Positions 1,124 to 7,696 of a stretch of DNA of 9,283 nt are shown piece after piece. The translations under genes were made by a program, and so were the position numbers. The notes below the pieces were generated by a model. It searched no databases. It was not told where the DNA came from and saw only the letters and a list, made by a program, of their open reading frames with translations. The DNA is taken from NCBI GenBank assembly GCA_015663225.1, contig DQSO01000174.1, positions 1 to 9,283 on the forward strand, written 5' to 3'. This DNA is from Campylobacterales bacterium. Lineage in GTDB: Bacteria > Campylobacterota > Campylobacteria > Campylobacterales > QNZT01. Each line of letters opens with the position of its first letter. Position 1 is the first letter of the stretch.

Positions 1124-2176
1124 TTGAACTATATAGGCTCAAAACATAGACTAAGAGCTTTTTTAAAACATGAGATTAAAAAAGTTGTTGGAGATGATTT
1201 GAGTCAAAAAGTTTTTTGTGACCTTTTTGCGGGAAGTGGAGCAGTTGGAAAATCTTTTAAAAATGAAGTAAAACAACTCATATCCAATGATATCGAGCAT
1301 TACAGCTATATCCTAAACAAAAACTATATTGGCAATACAAAAGCTATAAAAAATCAAACTAAGCTAATAGAAGAGCTAAACTCTCTTACATTAAAAGATG
1401 ATGGTTTTATATATAGACACTATTGCAAAGGAAGTGGAAGCCAAAGACTATATTTTAGTGACTACAACGGCAAAAAAATAGACACCATAAGAACACAACT
1501 TAACCTTTGGAGAAAAACATCCTTTATAGATGAAAATACATACTACTTTTTACTAGCCTCACTTATAGAAAATGCAGATAGCGTTGCAAATACAGCATCA
1601 ATTTACAGTGCATTTTTAAAAACTCTTAAAAAAACTGCTCAAAAGAAACTGATACTAACTCCAGCAAAGTTTGAATTAAGCCCAAATACTCATATAGTTT
1701 ACAATCAAAACAGCGACACTCTTATCAAACAAATCCAAGGTGACATCCTCTACCTAGACCCACCATACAACCAAAGACAATATGGCTCAAACTATCACAT
1801 ACTAAATACTATCTCAATATATGATGAGTTTATCCCATACGGAATAACAGGAGTAAGACCAACCTACACAAGATCACTCTATGCCCAAAAAAGACATACA
1901 AATCAAGCCTTTAATAACCTCATCAAAAATGCAAACTTTAACTATATATTTTTAAGCTACAACAACGAAGGCTTAATGAGTAAAGAGTTTATAAAAAATA
2001 CCATGCAAAAATATGGCGACTATCATTTAGTTAAAAAAGAGTATAAAAAATTTCATACAACAAAAAGCACAAACCAAAATCAAAAAGCTGATAGGACTTA
2101 TGAGTATCTACATGTTTTGGTTAAAAGATACTCTTATTTAAATCCAACCAAACAAAACACGATAAACTCCATATGA
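1124..2176 (+). CDS. D12-class DNA adenine-N6 methyltransferase, orphan
   Basis: The start is TTG at 1124, only two bases after the yajQ stop. It gives MNYIGSKHRL, the conserved beginning of this family (Dam/D12 class, COG3392-like). The SAM-binding motif DLFAGSG is at 33-39 and the catalytic DPPY at 212-215, followed by NQRQYGSNYH, which is typical of the subgroup that transfers a methyl group to adenine N6 in DNA. At 350 residues it is a complete single-domain enzyme. No Shine-Dalgarno is obvious, so translation may depend on coupling to yajQ. No restriction endonuclease lies in the window, so it looks like an orphan methylase that could act in epigenetic regulation, or a relic of a restriction system. 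The target sequence cannot be read from the protein. Its last 43 bases overlap the convergent methyltransferase gene. Confidence 0.85.
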   Translation: MNYIGSKHRLRAFLKHEIKKVVGDDLSQKVFCDLFAGSGAVGKSFKNEVKQLISNDIEHYSYILNKNYIGNTKAIKNQTKLIEELNSLTLKDDGFIYRHYCKGSGSQRLYFSDYNGKKIDTIRTQLNLWRKTSFIDENTYYFLLASLIENADSVANTASIYSAFLKTLKKTAQKKLILTPAKFELSPNTHIVYNQNSDTLIKQIQGDILYLDPPYNQRQYGSNYHILNTISIYDEFIPYGITGVRPTYTRSLYAQKRHTNQAFNNLIKNANFNYIFLSYNNEGLMSKEFIKNTMQKYGDYHLVKKEYKKFHTTKSTNQNQKADRTYEYLHVLVKRYSYLNPTKQNTINSI

Positions 2177-3744: not shown

Positions 3745-4143
3745 TTATAAATATCTCTCTACAAATTTTTTACTATCTATCACATCTATATCTACATGAT
3801 AAAAACTCTTATCATTTGTAATTATCAAATCACACTTGGATTTTTTTGCACACATATATTGAATAGTATCTTCCAAATCACTGTTATCTATATTAAATGC
3901 TTGATTAAACAAATCATTATCTGCACCCATAATTGTACATATACTATTTACTAACATTAAAAATTCTTTTACATCTTTAACTTGCTTTTTTGCAATATAG
4001 TCAATATTTAAAAGTGTAATATTTAAAATCGCTGCTTCAAATAGTCCTTTTTCTACACTATTTAAAATCTGCATAGACTCTTTAAAGTTTTCTCGTTTTA
4101 AAATCAAATCGAGAAAAATATTTGTATCGAGAAAAATCTTCAT
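3745..4143 (-). CDS. PIN-domain (VapC-like) toxin of a type II TA module
   Basis: A 132-residue PIN-domain protein. It begins MKIFLDTNIFLD, with the first catalytic Asp at D6 (DTN). It also has the later acidic pair in DLEDTIQY (D89, E91, D92) and the final IITNDKSFY with D111. PIN domains use these acids to bind magnesium and cut RNA; VapC toxins often cut tRNA or rRNA. The acidic residue commonly found near position 43-46 is not clear here (ITLLNIDYIAKK), as in the PIN_3-type subgroup. The start overlaps the antitoxin stop by four bases (ATGA), the usual coupling for these pairs. The local DNA is visibly more A+T-rich than the PP-loop gene downstream, which suggests separate acquisition. 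Its partner and position support a toxin role; the RNA target is unknown. Confidence 0.85.
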   Translation of the reverse strand: MKIFLDTNIFLDLILKRENFKESMQILNSVEKGLFEAAILNITLLNIDYIAKKQVKDVKEFLMLVNSICTIMGADNDLFNQAFNIDNSDLEDTIQYMCAKKSKCDLIITNDKSFYHVDIDVIDSKKFVERYL

Positions 4144-4388
4144 TTTACTATTTCACTATATTTTAAATCATCAGTTTTAAAATCATCATCTAATATCCCA
4201 ACAAATTTACAAAAACTTCCACTATCTAAATCATCTTTTTTATAAGAGCTAGATATAAGTGCTAAATACTCTTCATAAGGTAGTATAACGGCTTTTTTAT
4301 GATTAGCTTTTTTATCAACAATCAATACAGTTTTATTTAACAACTTTGTAAATTGTGTTTGAGCTTGAGATATTCCTAGTTCCAACAT
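4140..4388 (-). CDS. Phd/YefM-like antitoxin of a type II TA module
   Basis: An 82-residue protein whose N-terminal half (SQAQTQFTKLLNK, then a basic strand and KKAVILPYEEYLAL at 31-44) matches the Phd/YefM antitoxin fold, which dimerises and binds DNA. The acidic C-terminal part (about 50-82, ending FKTDDLKYSEIVK) would be the flexible segment that blocks the PIN toxin. In known systems the antitoxin and the complex repress their own promoter. Here a 36-bp palindrome directly upstream is the obvious operator. AAAGGAG at 4400-4394 gives a strong ribosome binding site five bases from the ATG, consistent with the antitoxin being made in excess. Its end overlaps the toxin start (ATGA). The pair lies directly behind dnaG. 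Confidence 0.8.
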   Translation of the reverse strand: MLELGISQAQTQFTKLLNKTVLIVDKKANHKKAVILPYEEYLALISSSYKKDDLDSGSFCKFVGILDDDFKTDDLKYSEIVK

Positions 4389-4438: not shown

Positions 4439-7231
4439 CTATAGACCTTGATATGTTACCAACTCTCCTTTTAGCAATTTTTTAATGTTTTCATTTATTT
4501 TTCTTAATATAAAACTCTTTTTATTAAAATCTATACTTCTATCTTGTTTAACTATTTGAAGTTTTTGTCTGTTTTTTATAATAAGTTGTTTTATTATCTG
4601 ATTTGTCAACTCATCTTCGCTTAGCTCTTTTATATCATCTCGTAAAGAGATTTCAACGATATATGGATTGTCTAACTTATCTCTTAAAAGTAGCATAAAC
4701 TCGTTTTTATGCACCTTAAAAATCTCCTCACCAACTACATCTAAAAGTGTATCTATAAGATGAGGATGAGCCAAAAAAGTCTTTATCATGCTAAGTTCAC
4801 TTATATCTTCTCGTCTGTGTAGCTTGGTTTGGTCTTGAGGTTGATAGTTTGTATTTACATCTATATGTTTTTGATTTATCTGCAAGATTACACTTAGGTA
4901 TGATTTATACTCATCTTGAAGTACTGGAGAGAGTGATTTTAGATACGATGAGGCCTCTTTAAGTGCATCCTCTTTTTGTAGTGGGTCACTAAGATTGTAT
5001 TTAGCCAAAATCTGCTCAAAACAAAACTCCACAAAAAGCTTAGGCTTTGAAAATAGCTCTTTTAACTCTTTTGATTTATGTTGTTGCACCATTTCTGCGG
5101 GGTCTTGACCATCACCAAATATCACAACACCACCCTTTGCACTCTTGCCACTTAGCATTGTAGCAGCTTTAAATGCAGCTACAATACCAGCTTTATCCCC
5201 ATCATAAGCTACTATAACCCTAGCACCAGTTTTTAAAAGCAGAGGTATGTGAGTCTGGGTTAGAGCCGTTCCCAAAGTTGCTACACTATTTGTAAATCCA
5301 GCTTGATGCAGCATAATAACATCCAAATATCCCTCACAAACTATAATCTCATTAAGCTTCGCAACTGAACTTCGAGCCTTATGATAACCATAAAGAAGTC
5401 TTGACTTATCAAAAATTTTACTTTGAGGAGAGTTTATATACTTTGCAGGATGGTTTGAGATAGTTCGCCCACCATATCCAACTATCTTTCCATTTGTATT
5501 AAATATCGGAAAAGTTATCCTATCAATAAACCTAGCATAAGCTCTACCACTCTCATTTAAAGCGATAATCCCCAACTCCAATGCCTCAGTAGAAGAAACT
5601 TGTTGTCCTTTTATAAAGGATAAACTTTGATCAGAATCAGGGGCAAATCCTATCTCAAAGTTTTCAACCGAAGAGTCATAAATACCTCTATCACTAAGAT
5701 ACTTTTTAGCTTTAGTATTTTTATCAAGATTTCGTCTAAAATATGAGTTCAAATCCTCTAAAATCTTCTTCTGAACAAAGTTTTTTCTATCATCTTTACT
5801 ATATTTCAAAGTTACATTGAACTTATCAGCAAGTTTTTCTATGGCTTCAGGATAGTTTAGTTTCTCATACTCCATAACAAACTTTATACTATCTCCACCT
5901 ACTCCACAGTTTCCAACTAAAAAACTTTTTGTTAAAAAAGTATGACTACTATCTTTAACTGTAATATCATAAACCAACTCTTCATCAGCACTATCTTCTA
6001 TATCTTTTACTCTCATAAAGAGATATTGTAGACCCTCAATCTCTTGGAAAAAACCTTTTAAAGACTCTCTTTTATAAAAAAGTAACTTATAGCATTGCTT
6101 ATGATTAATACCATTTTTATCAATATATTTTTTACTCTTATAAAGCGATGGTATTTTTTTCAAACTAATAGATAGATCAACTAAAAGATAAGCTAACTCT
6201 CTACTTATAGTTGTATAAGTACGACGGCTATAACAACCATCTCCATCCATTAAGCCCTTTAAAAGTGCTTCTCTAAGTTCTATTTTTAAATAGTTAAAAC
6301 TATATGGATATTTTTTATTTTCAGCCCCTTTATTGAAAAGTGCTTTAAATATATACTCTAAGTTTGTACCTGAACAAGTAACTTCAAGAGAGTTATCTCT
6401 ATCTTTTGGAAAAGATAAAGATGCTTCTTTATCAAATGAAGATCTTAAAATTTTTATTATCTTATTTGCATACTCTATTTCAGCACTATGAAGCGAAAAC
6501 TTAATTCCACCACGATAAGTGCTACCTTCAGCTAGATAGATACCAAAAAGCCACATCAACTCTTCACTAAATTTTACTTTTTCTATCTTGTTAATCATGG
6601 GTCCAAGCTTACTGTTTTCCCAATAACTTGAGAGGTCTAAATACTCATCTTTTACTATATCTCTATCTACAGGATATAAAAAATAATCCCCTTTTTTTAC
6701 ATCAGAAGCCAACACTACTTTGCTATTAATCTCTATAGGTTTAATATATTGTCTTTTTTTAATTCTTCCATAAAACTTTAAAGGTCTTGTTTTTTCAACT
6801 CGAATATAGGGAAGGTTTTTGATTGCATTATCTTTTGAAACTACTATCATGTCATGATTTTTTGTAAAGGTAGACTCTTCACCAATCAAGTCAGTTCTAA
6901 ACTTTAACATTTGATATTGTGGTTTATGTTTTAAGACATTGATAACCTCCGTTTTTTTACCACTTGAAGCAAAAACAAAATCCCCAACTTCTATATCTTC
7001 TATTTTTTTTATACCCTTTGTAGTTCTTACCTCTTCATAAGGGGCTAAACACCCAAAGCAATGATATATCTGCTTAGAAGGGCTTACTACAAAAGAGGGT
7101 GTGTTTTCTCCATGAAATGGGCAGTTTGCTTTAAAGTTTGCACCACTTTTTTTAAGCTCAAGATACTCACCTACAACATCAACAACATCAAGTCTACTTT
7201 TTAGGTTTTCAATCGAATCTCTATCTATCAT
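4439..7231 (-). CDS. dnaG: DNA primase DnaG interrupted by an in-frame intein
   Basis: The 930-codon frame encodes a primase of about 549 residues once the 381-residue intein (61-441) is removed, close to the usual bacterial length. The zinc domain has C37, H40, C58 and, after the intein, C442. The catalytic core shows RITFPI near 571-576 and the TOPRIM motifs EGYLDV (633-638) and YDGDKAG (676-682), whose acids bind the metal for RNA primer synthesis. The C-terminal helical part (about 805-930) should contact the DnaB helicase. The start MIDRDSIENL is the conserved DnaG start. A TGC-TATAAT extended -10 lies six bases before ATG, so the message is probably leaderless. The enzyme primes lagging-strand DNA synthesis and is essential, so splicing must work for the cell to live. 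A TA module follows 50 bases after the stop. Confidence 0.95.
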   Translation of the reverse strand: MIDRDSIENLKSRLDVVDVVGEYLELKKSGANFKANCPFHGENTPSFVVSPSKQIYHCFGCLAPYEEVRTTKGIKKIEDIEVGDFVFASSGKKTEVINVLKHKPQYQMLKFRTDLIGEESTFTKNHDMIVVSKDNAIKNLPYIRVEKTRPLKFYGRIKKRQYIKPIEINSKVVLASDVKKGDYFLYPVDRDIVKDEYLDLSSYWENSKLGPMINKIEKVKFSEELMWLFGIYLAEGSTYRGGIKFSLHSAEIEYANKIIKILRSSFDKEASLSFPKDRDNSLEVTCSGTNLEYIFKALFNKGAENKKYPYSFNYLKIELREALLKGLMDGDGCYSRRTYTTISRELAYLLVDLSISLKKIPSLYKSKKYIDKNGINHKQCYKLLFYKRESLKGFFQEIEGLQYLFMRVKDIEDSADEELVYDITVKDSSHTFLTKSFLVGNCGVGGDSIKFVMEYEKLNYPEAIEKLADKFNVTLKYSKDDRKNFVQKKILEDLNSYFRRNLDKNTKAKKYLSDRGIYDSSVENFEIGFAPDSDQSLSFIKGQQVSSTEALELGIIALNESGRAYARFIDRITFPIFNTNGKIVGYGGRTISNHPAKYINSPQSKIFDKSRLLYGYHKARSSVAKLNEIIVCEGYLDVIMLHQAGFTNSVATLGTALTQTHIPLLLKTGARVIVAYDGDKAGIVAAFKAATMLSGKSAKGGVVIFGDGQDPAEMVQQHKSKELKELFSKPKLFVEFCFEQILAKYNLSDPLQKEDALKEASSYLKSLSPVLQDEYKSYLSVILQINQKHIDVNTNYQPQDQTKLHRREDISELSMIKTFLAHPHLIDTLLDVVGEEIFKVHKNEFMLLLRDKLDNPYIVEISLRDDIKELSEDELTNQIIKQLIIKNRQKLQIVKQDRSIDFNKKSFILRKINENIKKLLKGELVTYQGL
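5909..7051 (-). mobile_element. DnaG intein with LAGLIDADG homing endonuclease
   Basis: This in-frame segment covers DnaG residues 61-441 (381 residues). It starts with C61 in CLAPYEEV, and a typical block A follows (TTKGIKKIEDIEVGD). Block B carries the TxxH signature at T123-H126. The endonuclease has two dodecapeptides, LFGIYLAEG ending at 236 (acid E235) and LKGLMDGDG ending at 332 (acid D331), so both catalytic acids are present. Block F is VYDITVKDSSHTF (His430), and the end is LVGN441 followed by C442 as the +1 residue. The penultimate residue is Gly440, not the common His. Removing the segment restores the normal zinc-finger motif CFG-CGVGGD exactly, which fixes both borders. Known inteins of this class excise themselves after translation, and the endonuclease spreads them into intein-free alleles. 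Confidence 0.95.
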
Positions 7232-7306: not shown

Positions 7307-7696
7307 ATGAATAAGTTACTAATACTACTTTTAGGGTTAAACCTATTTGGTGGAGATTTTTTTTACGAATATGGTAAAAAAGTTGAGGTCACACCAACAC
7401 CAAATCACTTGCGAAGTATAGATTTTAATGAGGGTGGCATAAGATACTACACCACTAAAAATGGAAAACAATTTGGTCTAAAACATGAGATAATACTCAA
7501 ACTAAAAAACAAAACTAACGACGCTCACTTTTTTGCATCATATAGCATAACTAATGCAAAAAAAATTGCTACAAAAACATACCTTATAAAGCTTGATGAA
7601 AAACAAGATATTTTTGAATTTTCTCAAACTCTTCACAATAATCCAAATACTGTATATGCAGTACCAAATAAGATACAAAAAGTAGAAAAAAGATGA
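7307..7696 (+). CDS. Small exported protein resembling a subtilase prodomain
   Basis: A 129-residue protein with an N-terminal signal peptide (MNK, then [13 protein letters not shown]), so it is probably exported to the periplasm; no lipobox cysteine is present. I do not recognise a named family. From about residue 61 the pattern, a strand EIILKLKNK, then [19 protein letters not shown], then [11 protein letters not shown], closely follows the inhibitory prodomain of subtilisin-like proteases, which ends in a segment like p.VeyAePN. There is no protease domain behind it; the stop overlaps the pyrC start by ATGA. It may be a free-standing protease inhibitor or chaperone, or may only share the fold. 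AGGATAAG at 7297-7304 supports the start. The link to pyrimidine synthesis is probably only transcriptional. Confidence 0.72.

Follow-up and report, generated by a model that had tools for sequence, protein, structure and literature searches.

What is a segment of 381 residues doing inside the zinc finger of a bacterial replicative primase, and how could it have come there? The question is raised by a contig of 9,283 nucleotides from a Campylobacterales bacterium (DQSO01000174.1 of assembly GCA_015663225.1), which was analysed at its full length and is called the window here. It is one whole contig of a fragmented bin (189 contigs, 956 kb, 65% complete). A single uninterrupted frame, 4439-7231 on the minus strand, encodes a DnaG precursor of 930 residues. 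The precursor scores 423 bits against the dnaG model TIGR01391 (cut-off 283.6) and contains the zinc finger (PF01807), the primase core (PF08275), the Toprim domain (PF13155) and the helicase-binding domain (PF16730) of bacterial DnaG. No other dnaG match was found in this incomplete bin. After codon 60, positions 5909-7051 of the same strand translate into 381 inserted residues with no stop. An initial annotation of this DNA had called the segment a full-length intein in a bacterial chromosomal DnaG, and the coordinates, Pfam matches and splicing residues agree with that. Our analysis suggests that residues 61–441 are very probably a class 1 LAGLIDADG intein located directly before the fourth zinc-ligand cysteine, that the primase likely stays inactive as long as the intein has not been excised, and that the intein is likely a homing one. 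The gene is divided as follows.

4439..7231, minus strand: open reading frame of the dnaG precursor, 930 codons and a stop (TIGR01391 match)
7052..7231, minus strand: N-extein, residues 1–60, ending in IYHCFG and holding three of the four zinc ligands (PF01807)
5909..7051, minus strand: intein, residues 61–441, from C to GN (translation, Pfam, empty-site alignment and predicted fold)
4439..5908, minus strand: C-extein, residues 442–930, starting with CGVGGD and holding the primase core, Toprim and helicase-binding domains (Pfam)

The insert alone passed the Pfam cut-offs for Intein_splicing (PF14890, 36.0 bits against 35.8), LAGLIDADG_3 (PF14528, 30.9 against 22.5) and Hom_end (PF05204, 25.0 against 21.1), and its predicted fold is the Hint fold of splicing domains. 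The residues of a class 1 intein are present: Cys61, the block B motif TKNH at 123–126, Asn441 and Cys442. The penultimate histidine, which is usual in class 1 and not required, is replaced by Gly440, and the insert ends in VGN|C. Two LAGLIDADG motifs retain both acidic residues, as in LAGLIDADG homing endonucleases. A search of solved structures by sequence returned weak matches only, the best being PI-SceI (expect value 0.0011). PF14890 and PF14528 each matched once in the incomplete bin, both times in dnaG, so no second intein was found there. PHROGs and PADLOC scans gave nothing further on the origin of the intein.

To describe conservation, residues were counted by alignment, and Cys1, Asn or Cys+1 was not demanded for inclusion. 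The 134 aligned proteins came from two match lists (the best 120 of each) and are hence enriched for bearers; P0002 (the intein of the window) and P0136-P0141 (inteins of other proteins) were left out. The alignment columns are approximate in shortened inteins such as P0131. The functional positions, all on the minus strand, and their conservation among the bearers reaching each column are listed here.

7121..7123, minus strand: codon of zinc ligand Cys37 (C in 106/106)
7112..7114, minus strand: codon of zinc ligand His40 (H in 106/106)
7058..7060, minus strand: codon of zinc ligand Cys58, the extein Cys-3 (C in 106/106)
7049..7051, minus strand: intein Cys1 (Cys61), the predicted splicing nucleophile, at the position of the fourth zinc ligand in intein-free DnaG (C in 106/106)
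6854..6865, minus strand: block B T-x-x-H, TKNH, residues 123–126 (T and H in 107/107)
6524..6550, minus strand: first LAGLIDADG motif LFGIYLAEG with acidic Glu235 (E in 102/110)
6236..6262, minus strand: second LAGLIDADG motif LKGLMDGDG with acidic Asp331 (D in 104/113; PF14528)
5909..5974, minus strand: blocks F and G (VYDITV...HTF...VGN) with Asp422, penultimate Gly440 and terminal Asn441 (Asp422 and Asn441 in 114/114, Gly440 in 107/114)
5906..5908, minus strand: Cys+1 (Cys442), the second splicing nucleophile and predicted fourth zinc ligand of mature DnaG (C in 114/114)

The roles of the zinc ligands are established for the CHC2 zinc fingers of DnaG primases. With ...YHCFG on one side of the insert and CGVGGD on the other, Cys58 and Cys442, which form the C-x-x-C pair of the zinc finger, are separated. 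The C-x-x-C spacing after Cys58 is kept in the precursor, where intein Cys1 occupies the second cysteine position.

The predicted exact excision and ligation are supported by a gap-free empty site. When the two flanks (549 residues) were joined and compared with the intein-free DnaG P0059 (551 residues), all 549 residues were aligned with zero gaps and 89% identity, and the identity remained high around the junction (58/60 before and 57/60 after). The borders proposed by the initial annotation are thereby confirmed, as is its statement that removal of the insert restores the zinc motif. A comparable pair was found in the genus of the single-contig genome G271, where a gap-free alignment of the intein-bearing P0041 with the empty L130 covers 548 residues, 516 of them identical. 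Among the 22 genomes of the window's own family, 20 have a dnaG match: in 18 the flanks are directly adjacent, one is cut, and the remaining one is the intein-bearing gene of the window.

The same site is occupied by an intein in 114 of the 134 aligned proteins, about 100 of which, besides the window's own, are DnaG of Campylobacterota type. A second set of bearers, with Actinomycetota-type DnaG, came mainly from a profile search (best 120 of 841); 102 such proteins were aligned (98 from the profile search and four from one of the first two match lists), and 102/102 carry the intein at the same place. The label Actinomycetota-type comes from a few named rows (P0156, P0185, P0191 and P0219, Rubrobacter or Actinomycetota). 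In this set Cys-3 and Cys1 are present in 101/101 proteins that reach them, and the penultimate residue is His in 101/101. The rarity implied at first did not hold. Together, homologous inteins occupy this place in 212 distinct aligned proteins including the window's (114 and 102, four being in both), and the insert is therefore not a chance one.

Splicing residues are invariant in the first set, and the penultimate residue of the 114 bearers is Gly in 107, His in six and Phe in one. The acidic residues of the endonuclease are kept less strictly, being altered in 8/110 relatives in the first motif and in 9/113 in the second, once to Glu. P0131 has just 211 intein residues and retains the splicing ends. 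These differences suggest that selection acts more strictly on splicing than on the endonuclease, which is the expectation for inteins in essential genes. The ratio of nonsynonymous to synonymous substitution rates (dN/dS) was 0.08-0.17 for the whole intein in five distinct pairs of relatives; by part, the same pairs gave 0.06-0.16 for the splicing domain, 0.09-0.24 for the endonuclease and 0.05-0.10 for the exteins. Ten pairs were reduced to these five by setting aside L122/L011 and L004/L127, whose members are identical, together with L112/L147, L008/L012 and L006/L117, which repeat other pairs under second locus identifiers.

The distribution of the intein is patchy. Full-length matches were found in 4/397 genomes of the window's class, its own included, and two more matches are weak and partial. 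At least 14/135 genomes of the G271 genus carry it (12 whole, two on cut contigs; 11 genomes have no dnaG match), as do 2/104 genomes of another family. The whole intein-bearing dnaG is present in the single-contig genomes G361, G271 and G425. Named bearers include bins of Sulfurimonas, Arcobacter, Campylobacteraceae and Helicobacteraceae, and Sulfurimonas sp. SAG-AH-194-L11. In G488 and G496, two bins of the G271 genus, the intein-bearing dnaG is truncated by contig ends.

The site is shared by primase-helicase fusions and by primases on likely viral contigs. Three primase-helicase fusions with DnaB_C (P0122-P0124) carry an intein at the same C-x-x-C. By reading of the sequence, P0123 and the fusion at L150:5995-10554 each seem to hold a second intein, in the helicase part, besides that at the zinc C-x-x-C. 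A single-sequence scan of viral contigs gave zero matches, and alignment scans were positive (in one of them, the best 80 of 207). In a pattern scan of 98 IMG/VR loci, six distinct contigs (L148, L149, L150, L151, L152 and L169; L148 and L168 are one contig) had the intein at the C-x-x-C. These inteins share 30-49% identity with the window's, with L148 at the top (48.5%), and L148 ends in VGN like the Campylobacterota form. In the intein trees a starred branch (100/97, 100/96) joins L148 to the inteins of Campylobacterota; its inner placement is unsupported, and long branches meet there. Since IMG/VR contigs are predicted viral, carriage of the intein by phages is likely rather than proven. 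Searching INPHARED with the window's intein (tblastn) gave 17 records, all below 60% identity (22-32% in the rows). Twelve are Staphylococcus phages, and most of the genes are DNA polymerases, that is, other hosts and sites. P0123 matched 199 INPHARED records; among the best 15 of the 199, 13 match from residue 422 onward (the primase part), and two, of Staphylococcus phage 6ec, match the intein part at 24.5%.

Does the intein share the history of its host gene? An extein tree was built from 107 chosen rows (95 of which differ), which are not a random sample. On this tree, intein presence requires at least 14 changes, 10 of them forced by starred branches, and a starred branch unites the window's DnaG with 17 rows that lack the intein, the empty P0059 being its neighbour. 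In a test with 34 bearers, each alignment rejected the tree of the other part: inteins against the extein tree with a difference in log-likelihood of 616 (approximately unbiased test p 1.5e-43), exteins against the intein tree with 928 (p 6.4e-93). The window's intein is more similar than the exteins in comparison with 93 of the 99 other bearers (with P0008, 69% versus 49%). In the pair L002/L112, synonymous divergence (dS) is lower for the intein (0.21) than for the exteins (0.67), which suggests a recent exchange of the intein. Two contigs of a single bin, L015 and L078, share exactly 127 bases without a mismatch: L015 spans the intein and ends in this overlap, and L078 starts at the codon of Cys+1. 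We infer a fork of the assembly graph at the intein border, so that intein-bearing and empty alleles would be predicted in one metagenome. By its contig numbers, G488 resembles the bin of L015 and L078.

Histidine at position -4 was considered as a signature of the target site. It is found in 97/98 parsed bearers, in 18/19 intein-free P rows and in 63/71 distinct intein-free loci. Once the tree was considered, no association with the intein was observed, and on average 9.7 of 10 independent pairs did not differ.

The anatomy of the insert points to the following pathway. Cys1 would attack the Gly60-Cys1 bond, Cys442 would then take the N-extein, and Asn441 would cyclise, by which the 381-residue intein would be freed. 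The 549-residue DnaG could then fold with a complete zinc site, Cys58-x-x-Cys. The freed intein is likely a homing endonuclease, which would cut at the conserved CFG|CG codons of dnaG or phage primase alleles that lack the insert, and repair would then copy the intein into the cut allele. Such homing would explain the patchy and laterally mixed distribution over two phyla and likely phages, and phages may have helped to spread the intein. The lateral spread provides indirect support for an endonuclease that cuts the empty allele.

Several observations weigh against this interpretation. PF14890 barely clears its cut-off on the insert, and with 32.5 bits for the full protein it falls short. A penultimate Gly could slow the cyclisation of Asn. 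The dN/dS values come from relatives and not from the window, and the intein dS exceeds 1 in two of the five pairs. The zinc domain has a low pLDDT (predicted local distance difference test score) in the precursor model, which means a lack of confidence and is not proof of disorder. The host genome is a 65% complete bin.

Other explanations of the locus were weighed on the same evidence. The insert could be an ordinary DnaG domain retained in the mature protein, as its single site in many DnaG proteins might suggest. This is barely conceivable, because its presence is patchy, its fold is that of an intein, its tree conflicts with that of the exteins in both directions, and the exact gap-free empty sites in close relatives contradict it; DnaG homologs carrying the segment as an ordinary domain were what the initial annotation had named as its refutation. 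The fragmented bin, with the window as one whole contig, might instead raise suspicion of an assembly chimera or a binning contaminant. This is very improbable: the frame is continuous, the extein groups beside P0059 in an otherwise intein-free set, single-contig genomes hold the whole intein-bearing gene, and, by reading of the sequence, pyrC, a small protein, dnaG and a ThiI-like gene are also neighbours in the relative L014. It is also improbable, if slightly less so, that the intein has decayed, with splicing lost or the endonuclease alone dead, which would make the locus a fossil. The penultimate Gly and the altered acidic residues of some relatives fit such decay. Against it, the window retains every splicing residue and both acidic residues in the sole dnaG match of its incomplete genome, Gly is the rule of the family, and dN/dS in relatives is well below 1. 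A split intein would occupy two genes with one half in each, and the frame in the window is continuous. Nine matches that start inside the gene, mostly inside the intein, were considered as candidates. P0112 (named S. sediminis) turned out to start within a frame that is complete in L123; the other eight (P0096, P0101, P0116, P0127, P0130, P0132, P0134 and P0135), which have no matching locus among those retrieved, are at most candidates.

A further possibility, which we regard as doubtful and yet worth attention, is that splicing is conditional and forms a zinc- or redox-responsive switch of the primase. Zinc, held together with Cys37 and His40, or a Cys58-Cys1 disulphide would hold Cys1 and block the first step. 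All bearers of the first set that reach the columns indeed have Cys-3, Cys1 and both upstream ligands. According to passages of the reviews PMC3922620 and PMC10663303, the MoaA intein of Pyrococcus abyssi is naturally trapped by a disulphide between Cys-3 and Cys1, and according to passages of PMC7360933, zinc stops a mycobacterial DnaB intein by binding its nucleophile. However, this geometry is forced for any Cys1 intein inserted before the second cysteine of a C-x-x-C pair, and the mature zinc site needs the extein cysteines regardless, so that their conservation is no evidence for regulation. The precursor model also lacks a zinc ribbon. If the switch were real, Cys1 would act as a stand-in fourth ligand, and release of the zinc or the disulphide would switch DNA priming on. 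DNA replication in Campylobacterota would then be metal- or redox-dependent, and the same device would exist in Actinomycetota and phage primases. On balance we favour the class 1 homing intein.

The other genes noted around dnaG in the window are the following.

3745-4388, minus strand: Phd/YefM-like antitoxin (weak PF02604, below cut-off) and PIN-domain gene (PF13470, PF01850), between dnaG and the ThiI-like gene
7307-7696, plus strand: small protein of 129 residues without Pfam match
1124-2176, plus strand: D12-class adenine methyltransferase (PF02086; PADLOC MTase_II)

In L014, dnaG overlaps the ThiI-like gene and nothing lies between them. Since the antitoxin/PIN pair separates the two genes in the window, a second insertion seemingly adjoins dnaG. 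On the other side, L014 has a counterpart of the small protein and then an S8-type protease-like gene beside dnaG; by reading of the sequence, the protease is missing there in the window. No restriction enzyme gene was noticed beside the methyltransferase in the window, where no dedicated search was made.

The initial annotation had also supposed that an intein at this site was unrecorded in the Campylobacterota. This stands insofar as no description of this DnaG insertion site was found in the open-access literature, taken as titles, abstract openings and passages; it is weakened by a 2018 review whose table, in the part available, already has DnaG among the intein hosts in Eubacteria (PMC5874633). 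The site is not described in passages of PMC8861304, PMC6195587, PMC8987985, PMC6293099, PMC7886860, PMC9425974, PMC4031507, PMC5050341, PMC3322345 and PMC4853749, and the text of PMC2814812 contains neither 'primase' nor 'DnaG'. Within the same titles, abstract openings and passages, nothing was found on inteins with Sulfurimonas or Campylobacterota, and none of the papers on Epsilonproteobacteria homing endonucleases concerns DnaG by its title or abstract opening. The site may be catalogued elsewhere.

Our results thus point to a likely mobile intein that sits where an essential enzyme of bacterial replication binds its metal. DnaG of two phyla and primases encoded on likely viral contigs have the position in common, which makes this a clear example of a single intein family using the same conserved codon pair in chromosomes and in likely phages. 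Compared with the VMA-type class 1 LAGLIDADG inteins (TliVMA 7qsu, PhoVMA 7qst and PI-SceI), the window's intein differs in having a bacterial primase as host, a penultimate Gly and 19-23% identity. The DnaG intein listed in PMC5874633 likewise has a bacterial DnaG host, and the table, as far as available, gives no insertion site, organism or sequence. The mycobacteriophage inteins in passages of PMC5050341, one of them in a TOPRIM primase, are alike in having phage and bacterial relatives and a primase-type host; none appears by organism name among the 17 INPHARED records, and they are therefore not close relatives. The Mycobacterium smegmatis DnaB intein shares a place in the replication machinery and a nucleophilic Cys as the metal target. 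As described in passages of PMC7360933, it is of class 3, has the nucleophile Cys118 and binds zinc through intein residues. A parallel in residue pattern is the redox trap of P. abyssi MoaA (Callahan 2011, via passages of PMC3922620 and PMC10663303), where an extein Cys-3 faces the intein Cys1 as Cys58 and Cys61 do here. The MoaA host is an archaeal oxidoreductase; the host here is a replication zinc finger, in which the disulphide is hypothetical, and it offers a simple test case of whether an intein can make the activation of a metalloenzyme zinc- or redox-dependent.
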